Part shown: positions 4,611 through 32,268 of the stretch, piece by piece | Position numbering within the stretch: the stretch's first letter is position 1 | How the letters are laid out: each line of letters begins with the position of its first letter | Made by a program: the position numbers and the translations under genes | Virus record (IMG/VR): IMGVR_UViG_3300036860_000750 | Location: 1 to 38,107 of that record | DNA from: a virus | Reading direction: 5' to 3' (one strand) | Length of the DNA: 38,107 nt | Notes under the pieces: generated by a model | What the model saw: the letters and a program-made list of their open reading frames with translations, nothing else | Told to the model about the DNA's origin: nothing | The model's database searches: none

Positions 4611-5495
4611 TCAGACCTCCCCTTTCGGCGCCCGCGGTAGGTCGGCCCCCCAGCCGACGTCGTCGGGGTCGTAGGTTTGCGCGCCCCAATCCGCCGGTCT
4701 CACGTCGCTCGCGGAGGGCGGATCACGCGCCGAGCGCAGCTCGCCCAGGTGCTTGCCGATCGCCCGCGGCGTGCAGCCGACCGTGAACGCGGCCCGGTAG
4801 CGCTCGACCAACCGGGGCACCTCCTCGGGGCTCACCGGCGGGTCGGCGGCCAGCAAATCGCCGATCGCCGCGTCCCATCCGCTCTTCTCGCCCCGGGTGT
4901 TCGGCGCGAACCCGAGCGCGTCGACCAGCGCCGTTCCGAGCGCTGCGCCGGCCTGATCGAGATCTTCGGGTCCGTCCCGTTCTCGTTCAGGTTCGTCGCC
5001 CCGCCCCCCACGAACCTGTATGAGTGCATGGCTGGCCGGCTCTTCTTCCCGGGGACGGGGTACGGGGACGGGTACGGGTACGGGGTCGTGACGCGCGTCA
5101 CGATCCGACTGTGACGGCGTCACGGTCGCCGTCACGCTCGCGTCACGGTCGCCGTCGGGGTGCGCGTCACGGCCGGCGCGGCCGTTGGCGCGGTAACGCG
5201 CGGCGCGGTCGGCCGCGGTGGGATCGGCTTTGTCGTTGTACTGGGCGAAGTCGTGGATCGCGTAGCCGTCGCCGTCGCGGTCCCAGCCGCGTTTGGCGAC
5301 CAGCTCGGCGATCGTGCGCCTCGTGCCCTTGATCGCCCGGACGAGGTAGAGCGCCTGGTCTTCGGTCAAGTAGCCGTGGGTGTGGTGGCGGTTGGCGTAG
5401 GAGATCGAATTGCCCCAGAGGCGGTACGCCTTGTCCGAGAACGACATCACCTTGCCGTTGTCGTAGAGCTGGTCGTCCCAGCGGCCCCACGGCAT
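4611..5495 (-). CDS. Replication initiator-like protein with N-terminal winged helix, 294 aa
   Basis: The N-terminal ~90 residues (MPWGRWDDQLYDNGKVMSFS, AYRLWGNSISYANRHHTHG, DGYAIHDFAQYN) match the winged-helix domain at the front of many phage replication/replisome-organiser proteins. The middle is a low-complexity linker (repeated DRDA and PVPVPVPVP). The C-terminal ~100 residues (GWDAAIGDLLAADPP, FTVGCTPRAIGKHLGEL) look like a small partner-binding domain. No ATPase motif is present, so helicase or polymerase would come from the host. The gene contains iteron-like repeats at 5095-5171, as lambda gene O does. ATG overlaps the HNH stop as TGATG. Confidence 0.75.
   Translation of the reverse strand: MPWGRWDDQLYDNGKVMSFSDKAYRLWGNSISYANRHHTHGYLTEDQALYLVRAIKGTRRTIAELVAKRGWDRDGDGYAIHDFAQYNDKADPTAADRAARYRANGRAGRDAHPDGDRDASVTATVTPSQSDRDARHDPVPVPVPVPRPREEEPASHALIQVRGGRGDEPERERDGPEDLDQAGAALGTALVDALGFAPNTRGEKSGWDAAIGDLLAADPPVSPEEVPRLVERYRAAFTVGCTPRAIGKHLGELRSARDPPSASDVRPADWGAQTYDPDDVGWGADLPRAPKGEV
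4988..5018. repeat. Perfect inverted repeat beside candidate origin
   Basis: CAGGTTCGT (4988-4996) and ACGAACCTG (5010-5018) form a perfect 9-bp inverted repeat with a 13-base loop, inside the replication-protein gene. It is followed by TATGAGTGCATGG, one of the least GC-rich bits of the gene. It may be part of an origin together with the iterons 75 bp away, or a chance coding palindrome. Confidence 0.45.
5095..5176. repeat. Iteron-like repeats inside the initiator gene (candidate origin)
   Basis: GCGTCACG occurs at 5095, 5117, 5140 and 5164, spaced 22, 23 and 24 bp, close to two helical turns. The two central copies extend to the identical 17-mer GCGTCACGGTCGCCGTC. Between 5051 and 5085 there is also a GGGGAC/GGGTAC tandem run that encodes PVPVPVPVP. 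In lambda the origin is a set of iterons inside gene O that bind the O protein. The same arrangement here suggests, but does not prove, an origin. Confidence 0.55.
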
Positions 5496-5869
5496 CACCG
5501 GCCCCCTTTCGCCAGGTTGCACCGGGCATGGGTGGTCTGCAGGTTCGACGGGTCGGAGGTCCCACCGCGGCAGAGGGGCACGATGTGGTCGATGCGCAGG
5601 TGCGCCGGCAAGACCGGCTGACCGCAGATACCGCAGCGCCAGCCGTCGCGCTCGGCGATCGCACGCCGGCGGACTCGGCGCCGTTCCTTGCGCACCGCCA
5701 GCAAGCCCTGCCGGTGCCGGAGCCGCCACTCGAAGTGCGCACGCGACGGGATCTCGCAGAGCCCGAGGCGGATCCACTGCGGCGGTGGCTTCGGCGCCCT
5801 CGCCAGCCGCTCGATCTCAGCCCGCATATCCGGCGGAAACGCGCTCAACGCAAGCACAGGTCGGCTCAT
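5495..5869 (-). CDS. HNH endonuclease, 124 aa
   Basis: The C-terminal half is a zinc-stabilised HNH nuclease: RDGWRCGICGQPVL with CxxC at 79-82, the catalytic DHIVPLCRGG (H95), SNLQTTHARCNLAKGG with N109 and the second metal pair. The N-terminal half is basic and helical and could bind DNA. ATG at 5867-5869 overlaps the upstream stop as ATGA. It lies next to the replication gene rather than next to terS, so a homing or replication-linked role is more likely than a packaging role. Confidence 0.85.
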   Translation of the reverse strand: MSRPVLALSAFPPDMRAEIERLARAPKPPPQWIRLGLCEIPSRAHFEWRLRHRQGLLAVRKERRRVRRRAIAERDGWRCGICGQPVLPAHLRIDHIVPLCRGGTSDPSNLQTTHARCNLAKGGR

Positions 5870-6132
5870 CGGCCCGTCCTCGCTTTCTTCGGGCGGACCG
5901 TCCCCGGCCGCTCGAACCGGACCGTCGCGGCCAGGAGCCGCGGCGGGTGGTACCGGCCATCCCAACGCGCCGCCGACCGCTTCGGCGTCATCACCACCTG
6001 CACGCCGTAGAGCTCGGCCAGCCGGTGGCAGACCTCGAAAAACCGCCCCTTCCAGGCGTCGGCCTGCTCGGCGTGCTCCTGCTCGAGCCAGGCCGCCTCG
6101 GCGCCCGGGACCAAGCGCTGCTCGCCGCTCAC
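5866..6132 (-). CDS. Hypothetical protein, 88 aa
   Basis: GTG start overlaps the upstream stop as GTGA. The first half is a charged helix (EAAWLEQEHAEQADAWKGRF), then FEVCHRLAELYGVQVVMTPKRS and a basic tail with RVRPKK-like residues. No family is recognised. The mixture of helix and basic C-terminus suggests nucleic-acid or protein binding, without further support. Confidence 0.6.
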   Translation of the reverse strand: MSGEQRLVPGAEAAWLEQEHAEQADAWKGRFFEVCHRLAELYGVQVVMTPKRSAARWDGRYHPPRLLAATVRFERPGTVRPKKARTGR

Positions 6133-6368
6133 GCCGGTGCCCCGCGGGCGCGCCGGCGTTGTGCCCGCCGCTCGGCCCAGCAGACCGAGCAGTGCGCCTT
6201 GCGCCCGCACCAGCGCCGCGTCTGCGCCAGCTCGTGCCCGCGCGCGCACACGAACCGCAGCGGGTAGCGCCGGCCCGGGGAGCAGCCGACGCAGAGCGGG
6301 CGCCCGTGGCTGAGCCAGCAGACCGCGCGCAGGCCGCAGCCCGCGCAGGGCGCGACCAGGGGGCTCAC
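6129..6368 (-). CDS. Double zinc-ribbon protein, 79 aa
   Basis: Eight or more cysteines in pairs: CAGC (8-11), C17, CVGC (26-29), C41 with H45, C54, C60 and CSVC-like 60-63, followed by a basic tail (RRAQRRRARG). This is compatible with two zinc ribbons. The GTG at 6366-6368 overlaps the stop of a 40-codon frame as GTGA. It is probably a nucleic-acid-binding or protein-docking module. Confidence 0.6.
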   Translation of the reverse strand: MSPLVAPCAGCGLRAVCWLSHGRPLCVGCSPGRRYPLRFVCARGHELAQTRRWCGRKAHCSVCWAERRAQRRRARGAPA

Positions 6369-6487
6369 GGCGCCCCCCCGCGAAGGCGGCGGGACCGGTC
6401 GGATCCCGGGCCTTGCGCGGCGGGTCGGCCGTGTGGGACAATGGCTCTTGCGGACAGGGTCATCGCCGTCCTCGCGGGGATGATCAA
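6365..6487 (-). CDS. Possible small protein, 40 aa
   Basis: TTG at 6485-6487 follows GGAGG by five bases; an internal ATG lies at 6463. The frame ends with a GTGA overlap on the next gene, the usual junction in this phage. The protein (starts MIIPARTAMTLSARAIV) has no known match. Its 5' part is completely covered by the predicted plus-strand antisense RNA, so its translation could be the target of that RNA. Confidence 0.4.
   Translation of the reverse strand: MIIPARTAMTLSARAIVPHGRPAAQGPGSDRSRRLRGGAP
6413..6442 (+). promoter_or_regulatory. Plus-strand promoter P1 against the replication operon
   Basis: TTGCGC (6413-6418), 18-bp spacer, GACAAT (6437-6442); start expected near 6449. It points opposite to all surrounding genes. 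It is the weakest of three similar promoters (others at 7140 and 7790) but the only one followed by a textbook intrinsic terminator. Confidence 0.5.
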
Positions 6488-6585
6488 CGCAACCTCCGTC
6501 TCTGGTCGGCGCGTTCGCCTGCACGGGTCCCGCGCGCCGGCCGGTGGTTTCCTTTACCCGGGCCGGTCCGCCGGCCCGGGTTTTT
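6449..6585 (+). ncRNA. Predicted ~137-nt antisense RNA
   Basis: Bounded by a sigma70-like promoter on the left and a perfect G+C hairpin with a T5 run on the right, on a strand with no plausible gene. The RNA would be antisense to the ribosome site and start of the 40-aa frame at 6487 and to the end of the 316-aa gene (stop at 6554). This is comparable in design to small antisense RNAs of temperate phages. A coding alternative (ATG at 6441) would begin inside the -10 and so is unlikely. The existence of the RNA is inferred from signals only. Confidence 0.5.
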
Positions 6586-7504
6586 GTTCCGCTTCCGTGC
6601 GAGGCCGCCGCATGCGCACGAGCGCGCCCGGGGGACCCGCCCGGAACTCGCTCCGCAGCGCCCGCCAGCCCCGCTGGGCCTCCGGGGGCCGGCGCAGCGC
6701 CCGCAGCCGCTCCTCGGCCCGGCGCACGACCCCGAGCACCCGCGCCCGCCAGGCCGCGTGCGCGGCGACCGCCCGCAGCCAGGCGCTCTCCCCGTCCGGC
6801 GCGCGCAGGTAGGCGCCCCGCTCGGCGCGCAGGCGCGCGGTGCGCTCCCCGATCAGGGCCTCGGCCCGGACCTTGAGCCGGACCAGCGCGTTGGCCCAGG
6901 CCTCCCGGTCGGCCGCGAGCACGTGGCGCCCGACCGGGAGGTCGTCGTGCAGCTCGGCCTCGACCAGGGCGGCGTGGGCCTCCTCCAGGGCCGTCCGGTC
7001 GCGCTCGGCGCAGGCCGGGCAATCGCAGCCCAGCGGCCCCTTGTCGGCCCGGTGCCCGCAGCACGGGCAGCGCGGCCAGGTCGGGTCCGACGGGCCGACC
7101 GCGGCCTGGCAGCGCCGGCAGCCGCCGGCCGTCCCCGCGTTGTCCGCCTGCGCGGGCGCGGGTACAATGGCACTCGCCGCGAGCGGTGACCCTGTCCTTT
7201 GCCCTCGTGGCACCGGCGTCGCGCCCCGCCCGCTCGCGGGCACCCGGTGCGGCGCCGCGGACGGTGGGGTGCCCCCGCCCCCAGCGAGGTCCTCCTCCGG
7301 GTCCGTCCCGGGGTCGGCCGTTGGGCGCCCGACCGCCGCCGCCGCCCCGCGCTCCAGCTCGTCCCGCACCTGGCCCAGCAGCAGCGTCAACGCCGCCTCC
7401 CGGCCGGCGCCCGGCTCGTCCAGCGCGGCCCCGATCTGGGCCGCGAGCGCGTCGCACAGCAAGACCAGCGCTTGCAGGCGGTCCCGCGCGCGGTGCTCGC
7501 TCAC
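6554..7504 (-). CDS. Large protein with central zinc-ribbon cluster, 316 aa
   Basis: GTG start overlaps the upstream stop as GTGA. Three parts are visible. An N-terminal helical domain (DRLQALVLLCDALAAQIG, AALTLLLGQVRDELERG) comes first, then a Pro/Gly/Ala-rich linker (about 75-135). Next is a dense Cys cluster (CRRC, CPCC, CDCPAC around 136-175) with a C-terminal charged coiled-coil (ALEEAHAALVEAEL, RLRALRRPPEAQRGW). No enzyme motif is recognised. The linker region overlaps the plus-strand promoter-like element at 7140-7168, so this could also be two genes. Its stop lies in the antisense-RNA terminator. Confidence 0.55.
   Translation of the reverse strand: MSEHRARDRLQALVLLCDALAAQIGAALDEPGAGREAALTLLLGQVRDELERGAAAAVGRPTADPGTDPEEDLAGGGGTPPSAAPHRVPASGRGATPVPRGQRTGSPLAASAIVPAPAQADNAGTAGGCRRCQAAVGPSDPTWPRCPCCGHRADKGPLGCDCPACAERDRTALEEAHAALVEAELHDDLPVGRHVLAADREAWANALVRLKVRAEALIGERTARLRAERGAYLRAPDGESAWLRAVAAHAAWRARVLGVVRRAEERLRALRRPPEAQRGWRALRSEFRAGPPGALVRMRRPRTEAEQKPGPADRPG
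6557..6585 (+). terminator. Intrinsic terminator of the antisense RNA
   Basis: CCCGGGCCGG (6557-6566), loop TCCG, CCGGCCCGGG (6571-6580), then TTTTT (6581-6585). The ten-base stem is perfect and the T run is on the plus strand only; on the minus strand the stem is followed by TAAAGG. The terminator therefore acts on rightward transcripts. Confidence 0.8.
7140..7168 (+). promoter_or_regulatory. Plus-strand promoter P2 inside the 316-aa gene
   Basis: TTGTCC (7140-7145), 17-bp spacer, TACAAT (7163-7168). The transcript would start near 7175 and at once contain GCGGTGACCCTGTCC (7183-7197), which can pair with GGACAGGGTCATCGC (6452-6466) at the 5' end of the predicted RNA from P1. No terminator was found downstream. 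Confidence 0.42.
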
Positions 7505-7746
7505 CGGCCCGCCCCGCCGCTGCCACCGCCGCGGCGGCCACCGCTGCGGCGCGCGGGCTCGCCCTCGAACGCGGCGCCCCCCAGCGGCCGGCCCGGCGCG
7601 AGCAGCGGCCCGCCGCAGCGCGGGCACACCCGCGGCCGCGGCTGGTCCGCCCGCCGCAGGTTGAGCGCCCGGCAGTCCAGCATCAGGCAGGGGTCGGCCC
7701 GCCAGCCCCGGTCCGGGCTCGTTCCGGTCGTTCCGTTCGCCCTCAC
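7501..7746 (-). CDS. Zinc-ribbon-like protein, 81 aa
   Basis: GTG start and GTGA overlaps on both sides. Has C-x-x-x-x-C (PCLMLDC, about residues 20-25) and CPRCGG (about 46-49), followed by GGAAFEGEPARRSGG and a Gly/Arg-rich basic tail. It is compatible with a four-Cys zinc site. No family is recognised. Confidence 0.5.
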   Translation of the reverse strand: MRANGTTGTSPDRGWRADPCLMLDCRALNLRRADQPRPRVCPRCGGPLLAPGRPLGGAAFEGEPARRSGGRRGGGSGGAGR

Positions 7747-7865
7747 AGCGCAGTCCACTTCATCGCTTTCCCCAAACCGTTCTCGTCGCTTGCCCGCCCG
7801 GCCGGCCGATCCGTACAATCGGCCCCGAGCGGTTCCCAAACCTGCTCGTCGGACGGGGCGGTCAC
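7743..7865 (-). CDS. Possible small protein, 40 aa
   Basis: Reads MTAPSDEQVWEPLGADCTDR and ends KAMKWTAL. It starts at GTG with a GTGA overlap and ends with another, which is the rule in this operon. Composition is ordinary for a soluble protein. No family is recognised. The start codon lies in the loop of the 7853-7886 hairpin. Confidence 0.42.
   Translation of the reverse strand: MTAPSDEQVWEPLGADCTDRPAGRASDENGLGKAMKWTAL
7790..7819 (+). promoter_or_regulatory. Plus-strand promoter P3
   Basis: TTGCCC (7790-7795), 18-bp spacer, TACAAT (7814-7819). The sequence after the -10 (CGGCCCCGAGCGGTTCCC) resembles that after P2 (CGAGCGGTGACCC), so the two may be related elements. The start would be near 7826, antisense to the 40-aa gene. 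Confidence 0.42.
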
Positions 7866-7886
7866 CCGGTACGGCGACCGCCCCGT
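7853..7886 (+). other. Perfect 11-bp hairpin downstream of P3
   Basis: ACGGGGCGGTC (7853-7863) and GACCGCCCCGT (7876-7886) pair perfectly around a 12-base loop; only TCCC follows, so it is a poor terminator in the strict sense. It lies 27 bases after the predicted P3 start. On the opposite strand the hairpin holds the stop of the 70-aa gene and the GTG start at 7865 in its loop. Confidence 0.45.
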
Positions 7887-8074
7887 TCCCGCCTCCGGCG
7901 CCGCCCCGCCAGCTTCGGGGCCCCCTGGGCGGGCACCGGCCCGCGCGGCGCCGCCTCCTCCCTCCCCAGCTCGTCTCGACCCTTTCTCGTCCCCTCCTCC
8001 ACCGTTTCCCCAGGGCCGCGGCGCACACTGGCGCGGCCGTGCCGCCCCCCCGGCTCCGCCGATCTCCCGCTCAC
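7862..8074 (-). CDS. Charged basic protein, 70 aa
   Basis: GTG start with GTGA overlap on the HTH gene, and a GTGA junction at the other end. The sequence is dominated by Gly, Arg and Glu (GETVEEGTRKGRDELGREE; RRRRRERGGRR at the end) and looks largely disordered. No family is recognised. The coupled junctions are the main reason to accept it. Confidence 0.45.
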   Translation of the reverse strand: MSGRSAEPGGRHGRASVRRGPGETVEEGTRKGRDELGREEAAPRGPVPAQGAPKLAGRRRRRERGGRRTG

Positions 8075-8268
8075 GCCACGCGCACCCGCCGCGTCGTCTC
8101 GACCCGCACCAGCCGGGCCTTCCAAAAAGCGAACGTGTTAGCGTTCACCTGCAGGCTCCGGGCGGCGGCCTCGATCGTGCCGTGGCGCTCGTACGCCTCC
8201 GCGACGATCTCGGCCAGCGGCTTGCCGTGACGCGCCTCCAGGGCACGGATCTGCTGGGACTTCCTCAC
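8071..8268 (-). CDS. Small helix-turn-helix regulator, 65 aa
   Basis: GTG at 8266-8268 follows GGAGG. The sequence KSQQIRALEARHGKPLAEIV, AYERHGTIEAAARSLQVN and NTFAFWKARL gives a helix-turn-helix in which GTIEAAARSLQVNANTFAFW is the likely DNA-reading part (Fis/transposase-like HTH). It is the first gene of the replication operon, directly behind a strong promoter and divergent from an XRE regulator. It is therefore a likely early regulator or Cro-like switch partner. Confidence 0.75.
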   Translation of the reverse strand: MRKSQQIRALEARHGKPLAEIVAEAYERHGTIEAAARSLQVNANTFAFWKARLVRVETTRRVRVA

Positions 8269-8337
8269 AGGATACGCCTCCTTCCCCTCAACGGAAGCCC
8301 GGGGCGGCGCAGCAGCGCCGTCCCGTGTGCGGAAGCC

Positions 8338-8366
8338 AGCTTACGCTGAGCGGAAGAGATTGTCAA
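8338..8366 (-). promoter_or_regulatory. Replication-operon promoter with operator palindrome
   Basis: TTGACA (8366-8361), 17-bp spacer, TAAGCT (8343-8338) on the minus strand; start near 8331. The palindrome CTTACGCT-G-AGCGGAAG (8340-8356, one mismatch) fills the spacer, and extra CGGAAG half-sites lie at 8330 and 8292. This is a likely operator for the XRE protein encoded at 8427, the HTH protein, or both. The leader also contains a CGGCGC/GCGCCG hairpin near 8305-8321. Confidence 0.72.
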
Positions 8367-8426
8367 GCCCCTCCCTACGAGACCACCCACAATGAGGGGG
8401 CAACACCGCCGAGGAGGCAGAGCCCG

Positions 8427-8807
8427 TTGGCGCGTCGGCGGCCCCGGATGCCCGGCTTCGACGTGGCGCTGGGCCGTCGCCTGGCCCAGGCCCTGGACGA
8501 GGCGAACATGCTCAAGAAGGAGTTCGCCCACAAGATGGGCGTGCCGGCGCAGACCGTCAGCCGCTGGCTGAGCGGGCAGGCGCCCATGGAGGCCGCCGAG
8601 GTCCGCAAAGCCGCCTGCGTCCTGCGGACGACGACGCTCTGGTTGATGGGCGAGGAACCGGCCTCCGACGAGGCGGCCCTGGTCCGGCTGATCCGGCCCT
8701 TGAGCCCCGAGCGGCGCGAGGAGGCCCGGCGGTTCGTGGCCTACCTGCTCGACCAGGAGCGCCGGGAAGGCACCGGGGTCCGCGGCGGAGCCGGCGTCGG
8801 CCGATGA
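8427..8807 (+). CDS. XRE-family transcriptional regulator, 126 aa
   Basis: The N-terminal HTH reads VALGRRLAQALDEANMLKKE, FAHKMGVPAQTVSRWLSGQ, with recognition helix TVSRWLSG. The second half (ALVRLIRPLSPERREEARRF, VAYLLDQERRE) is helical and may dimerise. TTG at 8427 is chosen because AGGAGG lies nine bases upstream; ATG at 8448 is the alternative. It is transcribed away from the small HTH gene and shares its operator region, so it probably represses the replication operon. No LexA-like cleavage domain is present. Confidence 0.82.
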   Translation: MARRRPRMPGFDVALGRRLAQALDEANMLKKEFAHKMGVPAQTVSRWLSGQAPMEAAEVRKAACVLRTTTLWLMGEEPASDEAALVRLIRPLSPERREEARRFVAYLLDQERREGTGVRGGAGVGR

Positions 8808-8934: not shown

Positions 8935-9636
8935 CTACCCAGCTGGCCGTTCGGCCTTCGGTAGACGCACCTCCGGGGCGGCCACGGCCTCACCGCCGCG
9001 CCCCTCGAGCAGCACGCGCAGGTCCTCGGCCGGCACGCGGAAGCGTCCCTTGAGGCCCCAGGCGCTGCCCCAGGAGTTGATCGCGTCGAAGAGCCCGCGT
9101 TTGGGGTCCCAGCCGTTGAGCACCCAGGCGTGGCCCCCCAGCACGGCCGTGCCCTCGTCGACCCGGACGACCCCGTGCTCCGGCGTCATCATCGAGGCCG
9201 TCCAGTCCGTGCCCACCACCAGCGGCCCGCCGAACTGCACCCAGCGGATGCACCCGTCGACGGTCGTCTCCCAGTGGAAGGCGTCGACGTAGCCCAGGCC
9301 CCGCAAGACCTGGCCCGCCGCCCGGACGCTCGTCCCGAAGGCCCGGTCGCGCTCGTTGCCGCTCCACTCGTCGGCGAGCGTCGCCAGGTCGTAGATGGTC
9401 GTGGCCAGCGGCTCGGCCCGGGCCCTGGTCTGGATCACCGGCGCGCACAACATCCAGTGCTTCCAGGCGTGCCCGACGCAGGTGCTCTCCTCCCCCTGGT
9501 CCAGCGGCAGCCCGAACAGCGCCCACTGCCGGACCGGAGCGGCGCCGGGCGCCGCCGCCCGCGCGTCGCTCAGCGCCCGCAGCGGGAAGAGGCGGTCCCG
9601 GGGGTCCTCGACGCGCAACCGGCCGAAAGCCGGCAT
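8935..9636 (-). CDS. Papain-like (C1 family) cysteine protease, 233 aa
   Basis: The papain catalytic set is present in order: Q47 and C53 in LDQGEESTCVGHAW, H169 in VLGGHAWVLNGWD, and N187 in DAINSWGSAWG. These match the oxyanion Gln, nucleophile, general base and Asn of C1 peptidases. There is no signal peptide or propeptide, so it would act inside the cell or in the particle unless released with the holin. It is the last gene of the lysis/late operon, overlapping the holin as TGATG. Its target (peptidoglycan crosslinks, host protein or virion protein) is unknown. Confidence 0.82.
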   Translation of the reverse strand: MPAFGRLRVEDPRDRLFPLRALSDARAAAPGAAPVRQWALFGLPLDQGEESTCVGHAWKHWMLCAPVIQTRARAEPLATTIYDLATLADEWSGNERDRAFGTSVRAAGQVLRGLGYVDAFHWETTVDGCIRWVQFGGPLVVGTDWTASMMTPEHGVVRVDEGTAVLGGHAWVLNGWDPKRGLFDAINSWGSAWGLKGRFRVPAEDLRVLLEGRGGEAVAAPEVRLPKAERPAG

Positions 9637-9953
9637 CAGACCCTGCCGGTCGGCTGTCCGCCCGCGCCGGCCGGGGGCGTTTTCGTCGCGGTGACCGCCT
9701 CGGGCAGCGCTCTCGTGAACCCGTAGACGCCGGCGCTCGAGGTCGCGACGACGATCCAGGCCGCGAAGTACGGCCAGATCATCGCCCGGCTGAAGGCGGC
9801 CTCGAAAGAGACCGCCCAGAGCACGACGCCGGCGGCGGAGAGCCCCAGCACGACCAGCGGGCCGTGCCGGTCCTGCACCAGCCGCATCCACTTCGAGAGC
9901 TGGGTCAGGGCCACGATCACGCCGGTGACCACGGCGATGTTCTCGGCGCTCAT
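9636..9953 (-). CDS. Holin-like membrane protein, 105 aa
   Basis: Three hydrophobic segments: IAVVTGVIVALTQL (about 6-19), LVVLGLSAAGVVLWAV (about 33-48) and MIWPYFAAWIVVATSSAGVY (about 58-77), then a polar Pro/Ala tail. Size and position right after the endolysin gene fit a holin, which permeabilises the membrane at lysis time. The ATG at 9951-9953 is part of a 14-bp duplication that provides a second, out-of-frame ATG upstream. Confidence 0.75.
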   Translation of the reverse strand: MSAENIAVVTGVIVALTQLSKWMRLVQDRHGPLVVLGLSAAGVVLWAVSFEAAFSRAMIWPYFAAWIVVATSSAGVYGFTRALPEAVTATKTPPAGAGGQPTGRV

Positions 9954-9969
9954 CTCTCGGCGCTCATCT
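9942..9969. repeat. 14-bp tandem duplication at the holin start
   Basis: On the minus strand AGATGAGCGCCGAG occurs twice in tandem. The first ATG (9967-9965) opens a five-codon frame, MSAER, whose TGA overlaps the real holin ATG as ATGA. The first copy also abuts the TAG of the 68-aa gene. Its effect on holin timing is inferred. Confidence 0.7.
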
Positions 9970-10174
9970 AGGGCTTCTCCTTGGGCTTGGGGTGCCCGGT
10001 GCCACCGCGGTGGCGGGCCGGCGCCAGCACCCGCACCCGGCCGCGCTGGACCAGCGCGCGCAGCACCCGCGCGTCCTCGGCGTCGCGCGGGTCGTTCGTC
10101 CGCTCGAGCCAGGCCGCCGCGGAGACCAGGCGCGACCAGCAAAAACTCTCGTACGCACCCGCGTCCGGGGGCAT
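9968..10174 (-). CDS. Hypothetical protein of lysis cassette, 68 aa
   Basis: ATG overlaps the endolysin stop as TGATG. Soluble, with FCWSRLVSAAAWLERTNDPRD, ALVQRGRVRVLAPARHRG and a basic PKPKEKP end. No membrane helix and no recognised domain. Its position between endolysin and holin suggests a lysis-related role, but nothing in the sequence proves it. Confidence 0.62.
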   Translation of the reverse strand: MPPDAGAYESFCWSRLVSAAAWLERTNDPRDAEDARVLRALVQRGRVRVLAPARHRGGTGHPKPKEKP

Positions 10175-31098: not shown

Positions 31099-32268
31099 GT
31101 GCCGGGCCAGGATGCGCCGCGACCCAAACGCCCCAACGGCGCCGGCTCGGAGTGGTTCGACGCCAAGCGGGCGATGTGGTTCGCGACCTACACCCGCGGG
31201 CTGCGCCCCGACGGGGTGCCGGAGGTCAAGCGGTTCGCCTCGAAGGTCAGCGCCGAGGAGGCCGCGCGCAAGCGGGACGAGGACCGCGCGCGGTGGCTGG
31301 CGCACACGGTCCCCGCCGCACCGGTCGAGCTGCAGACGCTCGGCCGGTTCTTGCGCCGGCGCTGGCTGCCGTCCCTCAAGCGCGGGCCGGAGACGCTCCG
31401 GCGCTACGAGCGCGACGTGCGGCTGCACATCGACCCGGCGCGCCCGACGCCGACCTCGATCGGCCACGTCCGCCTGCGCGCGCTCTCACCGGCGCACCTG
31501 CAGCGGCTCTACGACGCGCTCCCGCCGAGCGTCGCCTCCAACGTGCACGCGCTGCTGCACGTGGCGCTGAAACGCGCGACCCGCTGGGGCGACCTGCCGC
31601 GCGACGCCAACCCGGCCGACCTGGTCGACCCGCCGGTCTACGCCGCCCCCGAGATGCACCCGCCCAAAGAAGAGCAGGTCGCGCACTTCTTCGCTTCCTG
31701 CCTGGAGCGGGACGACCCCTGGCTGGACCTCTGGTTCTTCCTCGCCGACACCGGGTGCCGGCCGGGCGAGATGCTCGGGGCCGAGTGGGCGGACATCGAC
31801 GCCGGCGGTGAGTGGTTCGTCCAGAGGCAGCGCCGCACGACCGGCAAGCCCCAGAAGGCGGTCCTCAAGAACAAGCTGCGCCGGCGGGTGCAGCTGACCG
31901 AGCGCTTGATGGCGCGCCTCGAGCAACGGCGGGAGCGGCAGGCGGCGCTGCGGGAGCGCGCCGGCGGCTACTGGACGGAGGAAGGGTTGATCTTCGCCAA
32001 CCGGCTGGGCGGGGCGTTCCAGTGGGGCAACGTGTCCCCCGAGTTCCGCGCGGCCCTGCGCGCCGCCGGCCTGCCGTCCTGGCCGCCCTACGTGTTCTTC
32101 CGGCACGCGCACGTCACGATCGGGCTCGGCTTCGGGGTGTCCCTGCAGGCGATGGCCCGGCGGACCGGGCACAGCGTCGAGGTGATGGCCCGGGTCTACG
32201 CCCACCGGTCGGCTCGAGCGGACAGAGAAGCCGCCGCGGCGTTCGAGCGGGCGACCCGCCCGGGCTGA
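31099..32268 (+). CDS. int: Tyrosine integrase, 389 aa
   Basis: An N-terminal arm-binding-like region (WFDAKRAMWFATYTRGLRPD), a SAM-like core-binding domain (about 75-185) and a catalytic domain with R221 (LADTGCRPGEMLGAEW), a Lys near 257-259, R335 in VFFRHAHVTIG, H358 in RTGHS and nucleophile Y367 in ARVYAHR. The position of the usual first His of HxxR is Val332, an uncommon substitution. GTG start. It lies divergent from the late operon and converges on the excisionase-like gene, so attP is probably in the short gap behind it. Confidence 0.9.
   Translation: MPGQDAPRPKRPNGAGSEWFDAKRAMWFATYTRGLRPDGVPEVKRFASKVSAEEAARKRDEDRARWLAHTVPAAPVELQTLGRFLRRRWLPSLKRGPETLRRYERDVRLHIDPARPTPTSIGHVRLRALSPAHLQRLYDALPPSVASNVHALLHVALKRATRWGDLPRDANPADLVDPPVYAAPEMHPPKEEQVAHFFASCLERDDPWLDLWFFLADTGCRPGEMLGAEWADIDAGGEWFVQRQRRTTGKPQKAVLKNKLRRRVQLTERLMARLEQRRERQAALRERAGGYWTEEGLIFANRLGGAFQWGNVSPEFRAALRAAGLPSWPPYVFFRHAHVTIGLGFGVSLQAMARRTGHSVEVMARVYAHRSARADREAAAAFERATRPG

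Follow-up and report, generated by a model that had tools for sequence, protein, structure and literature searches.

We detected, inside the leftward early operon of a temperate phage, a compact plus-strand unit (positions 6413 to 6585) that we read as a small gene for a cis-antisense RNA working like the OOP RNA of phage lambda or CopA of plasmid R1; on the sequence, we give this reading a probability of roughly 0.5. A promoter-like site, a terminator, a noncoding body, a strand-biased fold, and an overlap with ribosome sites are all seen in the unit. The reading is favored by the directionality of the terminator, the membership of the promoter-like site (S1) in a set of three (S1 to S3), the lack of a coding signal, the fold, a comparable unit in another phage genome (the L024 unit), and the precedents of lambda and CopA. 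It is weakened by the weak promoter, the ordinary rank of the fold, a target leader frame devoid of coding signal, and the lack of a homologue.

Genomic setting of the unit

The window, i.e., the whole stretch of DNA that was analyzed (38,107 bases of record IMGVR_UViG_3300036860_000750, 73.3% G+C), has identical ends of 127 bases, pointing to a probably circular record. Its gene content identifies the source as a temperate, tailed phage, since it combines genes for an integrase, a repressor-like HTH protein, a RecT-like protein, and replication initiation. The features that frame the unit are as follows.

31099-32268: integrase gene
Spanning both ends of the record: RecT-like gene
8448-8807, plus strand: phage repressor-like HTH gene, running rightward, with an ACAAT at 8389-8393 upstream
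8338-8366, minus strand: probable leftward early promoter, TTGACA-17-TAAGCT, which would produce the target mRNA
6554-7501, minus strand: ORF of about 315 to 316 aa upstream of the unit, with its stop at 6554-6556
6365-6487, minus strand: 40-aa leader frame, the predicted target, with start TTG 6487 and SD GGAGG at 6493-6497 (5-nt spacing)
6129-6368, minus strand: gene for a 79-aa cysteine-rich (zinc-ribbon-like) protein, by GC3 the first solid gene downstream of the unit
4611-5501, minus strand: replication-initiation protein gene (phrog_2447, E = 8e-19), with homologues among actinophage proteins

Below the unit, the leftward operon proceeds through the 79-aa gene, an 88-aa gene, an HNH gene, and the replication initiator. 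Neither the 79-aa gene nor the 315-aa ORF matched any family in Pfam or PHROG. The latter shows a dip in GC3 at 7140-7270, around the second promoter-like site (S2), and may represent two genes joined by chance and split there. Within the replication-initiator gene, two tandem 23-nt repeats (5117-5162), 83% alike and joined by a third copy at 5260 (78%), mark a possible origin or mere repetitive coding.

Terminator and body of the predicted RNA

6413-6442, plus strand: promoter-like site S1, TTGCGC (6413-6418)-18-GACAAT (6437-6442)
6450-6585, plus strand: predicted antisense RNA of ~136 nt, comprising hairpin 1 (6458-6485), hairpin 2 (about 6499-6547), and the terminator
6556-6581, plus strand: intrinsic terminator hairpin, ACCCGGGCCGG TCCG CCGGCCCGGGT then TTTTGTTCC, followed by TTTTGTT

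The original prediction had posited a perfect 10-bp GC stem with a T run; these 10 G-C pairs were confirmed, and one A-T pair extends them to an 11-bp stem capped by a tetraloop and followed by the tail TTTTTGTT. With both strands of the genome considered, no T-tailed stem is longer, and a stem of at least 11 bp was encountered in 4% of 400 dinucleotide shuffles of the genome. As the T run is present on the plus strand only, the hairpin is directional, terminating rightward transcription against the operon; a leftward terminator at the same position was rejected because the minus strand lacks a U run. The stem is built from the last codons and the stop of the 315-aa ORF. Elsewhere in the genome, a perfect 16-bp inverted repeat with no T run (GCCGTGAGGACAGGCG-8-CGCCTGTCCTCACGGC; 1910-1949) lies ~90 nt beyond a small rightward HTH gene (end at about 1821), and only one other folded segment of the genome has a lower z than the one that begins at 1821. 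This repeat is perhaps a noncanonical terminator, in which case terminators in this phage would need no U tract.

The leftward genes flanking the unit have a GC3 of about 1.0, which drops to the background level at 6370-6600, so that most of this region looks noncoding, in agreement with the noncoding stretch initially described. Coding on the plus strand is likewise unlikely, given that the long plus-strand frames cross the terminator and show no GC3 signal. The plus-strand RNA is predicted to fold with a minimum free energy of -78.5 kcal/mol (z = -3.8), against z = -1.6 for its complement, and 8 of its 45 pairs are G-U pairs that break on the opposite strand. By z it ranks 18th among 1,086 genome windows (17 of the 1,086 were lower), some coding windows fold equally well, and the difference between the strands, about 2 SD, is not extreme. 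Hence, the predicted fold is suggestive but not decisive. The lowest fold z of the genome (-6.4) belongs to the minus strand at 9731-9870, inside a small ORF (9636-10142).

Overlap with the leader frame

The predicted RNA overlaps the final ~30 nt of the 315-aa ORF, including its stop at 6554-6556, and covers the start (TTG 6487) and the SD (GGAGG, 6493-6497) of the 40-aa leader frame; both overlaps had been put forward from the outset and hold. It spans, in addition, an internal start of the same frame (ATG 6463), whose SD GAGGA at 6469-6473 also has a 5-nt spacing, so that both SD/start pairs of the leader fall within it. The leader ends in a TGA that shares bases with the GTG at which the 79-aa gene starts. 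Complementarity to the SDs is in itself expected of an antisense RNA; however, in the predicted fold, the loop of hairpin 1 (CCUC, 6470-6473), complementary to the SD of ATG 6463, is unpaired, and so is part of the CCUCC at 6493-6497 that is complementary to the TTG 6487 SD. These segments could provide an exposed anti-Shine-Dalgarno contact of the kind used by control RNAs, although their exposure in the model may be due to chance. The leader frame has low GC3 and no coding signal, leaving its translation uncertain.

Promoter-like sites facing the operon

A plus-strand promoter had been proposed at 6413-6442. The sequence TTGCGC-18-GACAAT is indeed there, with an expected transcription start near 6449/6450, but by consensus alone it makes a weak promoter. 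It matches 7 of 12 positions of the sigma-70 consensus (which may not be that of the host); 46 sites genome-wide score at least 7/12, and a shuffled gap yields a 7/12 site in 9% of cases. S1 rises above chance by belonging, with two further sites, to a set that was unremarked in the original prediction.

7140-7168, plus strand: S2, TTGTCC-17-TACAAT, 9/12, at the edge of the GC3-low stretch inside the 315-aa ORF
7790-7819, plus strand: S3, TTGCCC-18-TACAAT, 9/12, within the noncoding gap at 7690-8070
7825-7900, plus strand: candidate short structured RNA from S3, with two hairpins, the second of 13 bp without a U tract

The pattern TTG-N20-22-ACAAT occurs at these three plus-strand positions (6413, 7140, and 7790) and nowhere on the minus strand, against 0.06 to 0.08 expected per strand over the whole genome, a figure that overstates the case somewhat since the pattern was chosen after the sites had been inspected. 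All three lie in low-GC3 stretches of the leftward operon. The S3 RNA gave a fold z of -4.3 in an interval chosen for it, whereas a fixed 140-nt window over it showed no strand bias; the S2 region folded no better than shuffles. The S1 and S2 RNAs contain a perfect 11-nt complementarity. There is a slim chance that S1 to S3 are three successive antisense units, each a promoter with a hairpin, that together restrain the lytic genes of the lysogen in graded fashion, and that the RNAs of S1 and S2 can pair with each other.

Three low-GC3 gaps in succession, each holding a plus-strand site directed against the same leftward operon, are also what would be seen if the promoter rather than the RNA mattered. 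Rightward transcription from S1 (and from S2 and S3) would then collide with the leftward polymerase and lower operon transcription, with the terminator merely ending the rightward transcription. Such convergent-transcription interference has been proposed as a role of the lambda pO promoter distinct from that of oop RNA (PMC3985674). We rank it as the main rival to an antisense RNA but consider it unlikely, as it needs neither the strand-biased structure nor the exact ribosome-site overlap seen for the S1 RNA. If transcribed, the set of three sites would offer one operon in which transcriptional interference and RNA pairing can be told apart.

ACAAT itself occurs five times in the genome (four on the plus strand and one on the minus strand), always in noncoding or low-GC3 sequence within 6438-8393, near the repressor gene, and includes an inverted pair at 8359/8389. 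Furthermore, S1 and S2 have in common an inverted repeat, GGACAGGGTCAyCGC, at 14 of 15 positions, a level not reached in 60 shuffles. These observations raise the prospect that the ACAAT motifs are half-sites for the repressor or another DNA-binding protein and that the hairpin has a role of its own, either as a rightward terminator or as a 3'-end element of the 315-aa mRNA. We regard this as quite unlikely: three of the four plus-strand ACAAT sites carry a TTG at promoter spacing (17 to 18), where 0.06 such arrangements are expected per genome strand, and the hairpin, given its T run, can act as a terminator solely for plus-strand transcription. Finally, S1 might be a 7/12 look-alike beside a real terminator that mops up stray rightward transcription, with no dedicated RNA, as its weakness as a lone promoter and a fold z unexceptional for the genome would allow, but the presence of the strongest terminator of the genome ~115 nt beyond it, in the same orientation, and its place in the set of three render this decidedly improbable.

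Comparison with known antisense RNAs

In plasmid R1, CopA consists of stem-loops and a terminator and is transcribed against a leader whose reading frame runs into the following start; for lambda OOP, destabilization of the target depends on RNase III. OOP, transcribed from pO in opposition to the pR operon, is antisense to the cII mRNA; the oop RNA seems dispensable for replication, whereas replication is influenced by pO itself, a promoter that opposes transcription from pR (PMC3985674). The resulting ambiguity between RNA and promoter carries over to the S1 unit. Like OOP (PMC3985674 and PMC7067206), the predicted S1 RNA is a short antisense RNA that faces an early/replication operon, finishes at an intrinsic terminator, and reaches into the 3' end of the gene upstream; its candidate promoter, weak by itself and supported as one of the set of three, lies in a gap. 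However, OOP is 77 nt long against ~136 nt here, no similarity was found between the two, and OOP targets a cII-type gene, while the upstream gene here is not cII-like (the 315-aa ORF has no family match); unlike OOP, the S1 RNA also covers the ribosome sites of a downstream leader. The likeness to antisense RNAs of temperate phages advanced in the original prediction thus extends to the layout of OOP, and perhaps its mechanism, and stops short of an RNA-family match.

CopA/CopT acts through translational coupling (PMC5415839), and the S1 unit shares with it antisense stem-loops and a terminator opposite a leader overlapping the next start, an arrangement that may point to such coupling, albeit for a leader devoid of coding signal. 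In contrast to CopA, the gene after the leader encodes the 79-aa cysteine-rich protein, and the replication initiator is the fourth gene down. Covariance models of Rfam found no match at the gathering score anywhere in the window, which further separates the unit from CopA and the other plasmid control RNAs in Rfam. With no Rfam match, no cII-type neighbor, and a putatively coupled gene other than the initiator, we do not assign the S1 unit to either the OOP or the CopA family. Mycobacterial RNA-based prophage origins (PMC7157519) were also compared and offered no basis for a sequence test.

Proposed mode of action

For the favored antisense-RNA reading, we infer transcription, pairing, coupling, RNase action, and an effect on replication along the following lines. 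Host RNA polymerase would initiate plus-strand transcription near 6450 and stop at the hairpin, releasing an RNA that ends near 6585. This RNA would pair with the early mRNA of the leftward operon where the 315-aa gene ends and across both SD/start pairs of the leader (6487/6463), blocking translation of the leader and, through the TGA/GTG overlap, that of the 79-aa gene, and the duplex might be exposed to a double-strand RNase. As a result, the promoter-distal block (79-aa, 88-aa, HNH, and replication-initiator genes) would be made in lower amounts than the promoter-proximal genes. Control of replication genes fits the predicted layout, with the initiator (4611-5501) in the same leftward operon and three genes between. 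If the unit is transcribed, this phage, for which our searches yielded no close relative, would possess a control RNA of the OOP/CopA type.

Search for relatives and a comparable unit in another phage

DNA similarity searches with the region in phages and plasmids returned nothing informative, and protein-guided scans of IMG/VR with the early-region proteins recovered no relatives of the operon genes, only distant thyX matches. Scans with the RecT-like protein and the terminase did return relatives, the nearest being a fragment (G001; 84% in the terminase) that shows no match to the S1 region and seems to stop short of it. In genome contigs, RecT gave no relatives and the terminase gave relatives of at most 41 to 57% from many phyla, the top ones mostly Alphaproteobacteria. 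A covariance model built from S1 found S1 itself, its other matches being weak (best E = 0.04). None of these searches, with DNA, with the operon's proteins, or with the covariance model, recovered a homologue of the region.

A unit of the same architecture is nevertheless predicted in L024 (IMGVR_UViG_3300033168_000001), a distant relative that shares a RecT-like gene with the present phage at 48% identity.

L024, 7812 to 7697-7699, minus strand: predicted unit antisense to early-region genes, with promoter TTGACA-18-TATACT at 7812 (11/12) and a 12-bp stem plus TTTT at 7731-7703

As in the S1 unit, an antisense promoter, a short RNA (~80 nt; z = -3.6), and a terminator occur together; they cover the start of a 107-aa frame, an early gene just past a small HTH-like gene, and the layout resembles that of lambda OOP. 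The two units show no sequence similarity and differ in RNA length, neighboring genes, and promoter quality, that of L024 being better. This parallel suggests that operons of this type can harbor such units and is no sign of conservation of S1; if both are transcribed, it suggests that antisense promoter-terminator units arise repeatedly inside temperate-phage early operons. A minus-strand terminator in L023, tried as a further analogue, was rejected as it lies inside a gene.

Other regulatory regions of the phage

An 18-nt inverted repeat (8793-8810/8873-8890; 94% complementary) is located at the end of the repressor gene. At 1540-1620, divergent promoters (TTGACA-17-TATGAT leftward and TTGATA-17-TATGAT rightward) and repeated TATCCGGTTG-like sites precede a small HTH gene. 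This region has the appearance of a second immunity-like region, which would give the phage two repressor-type regulatory regions.
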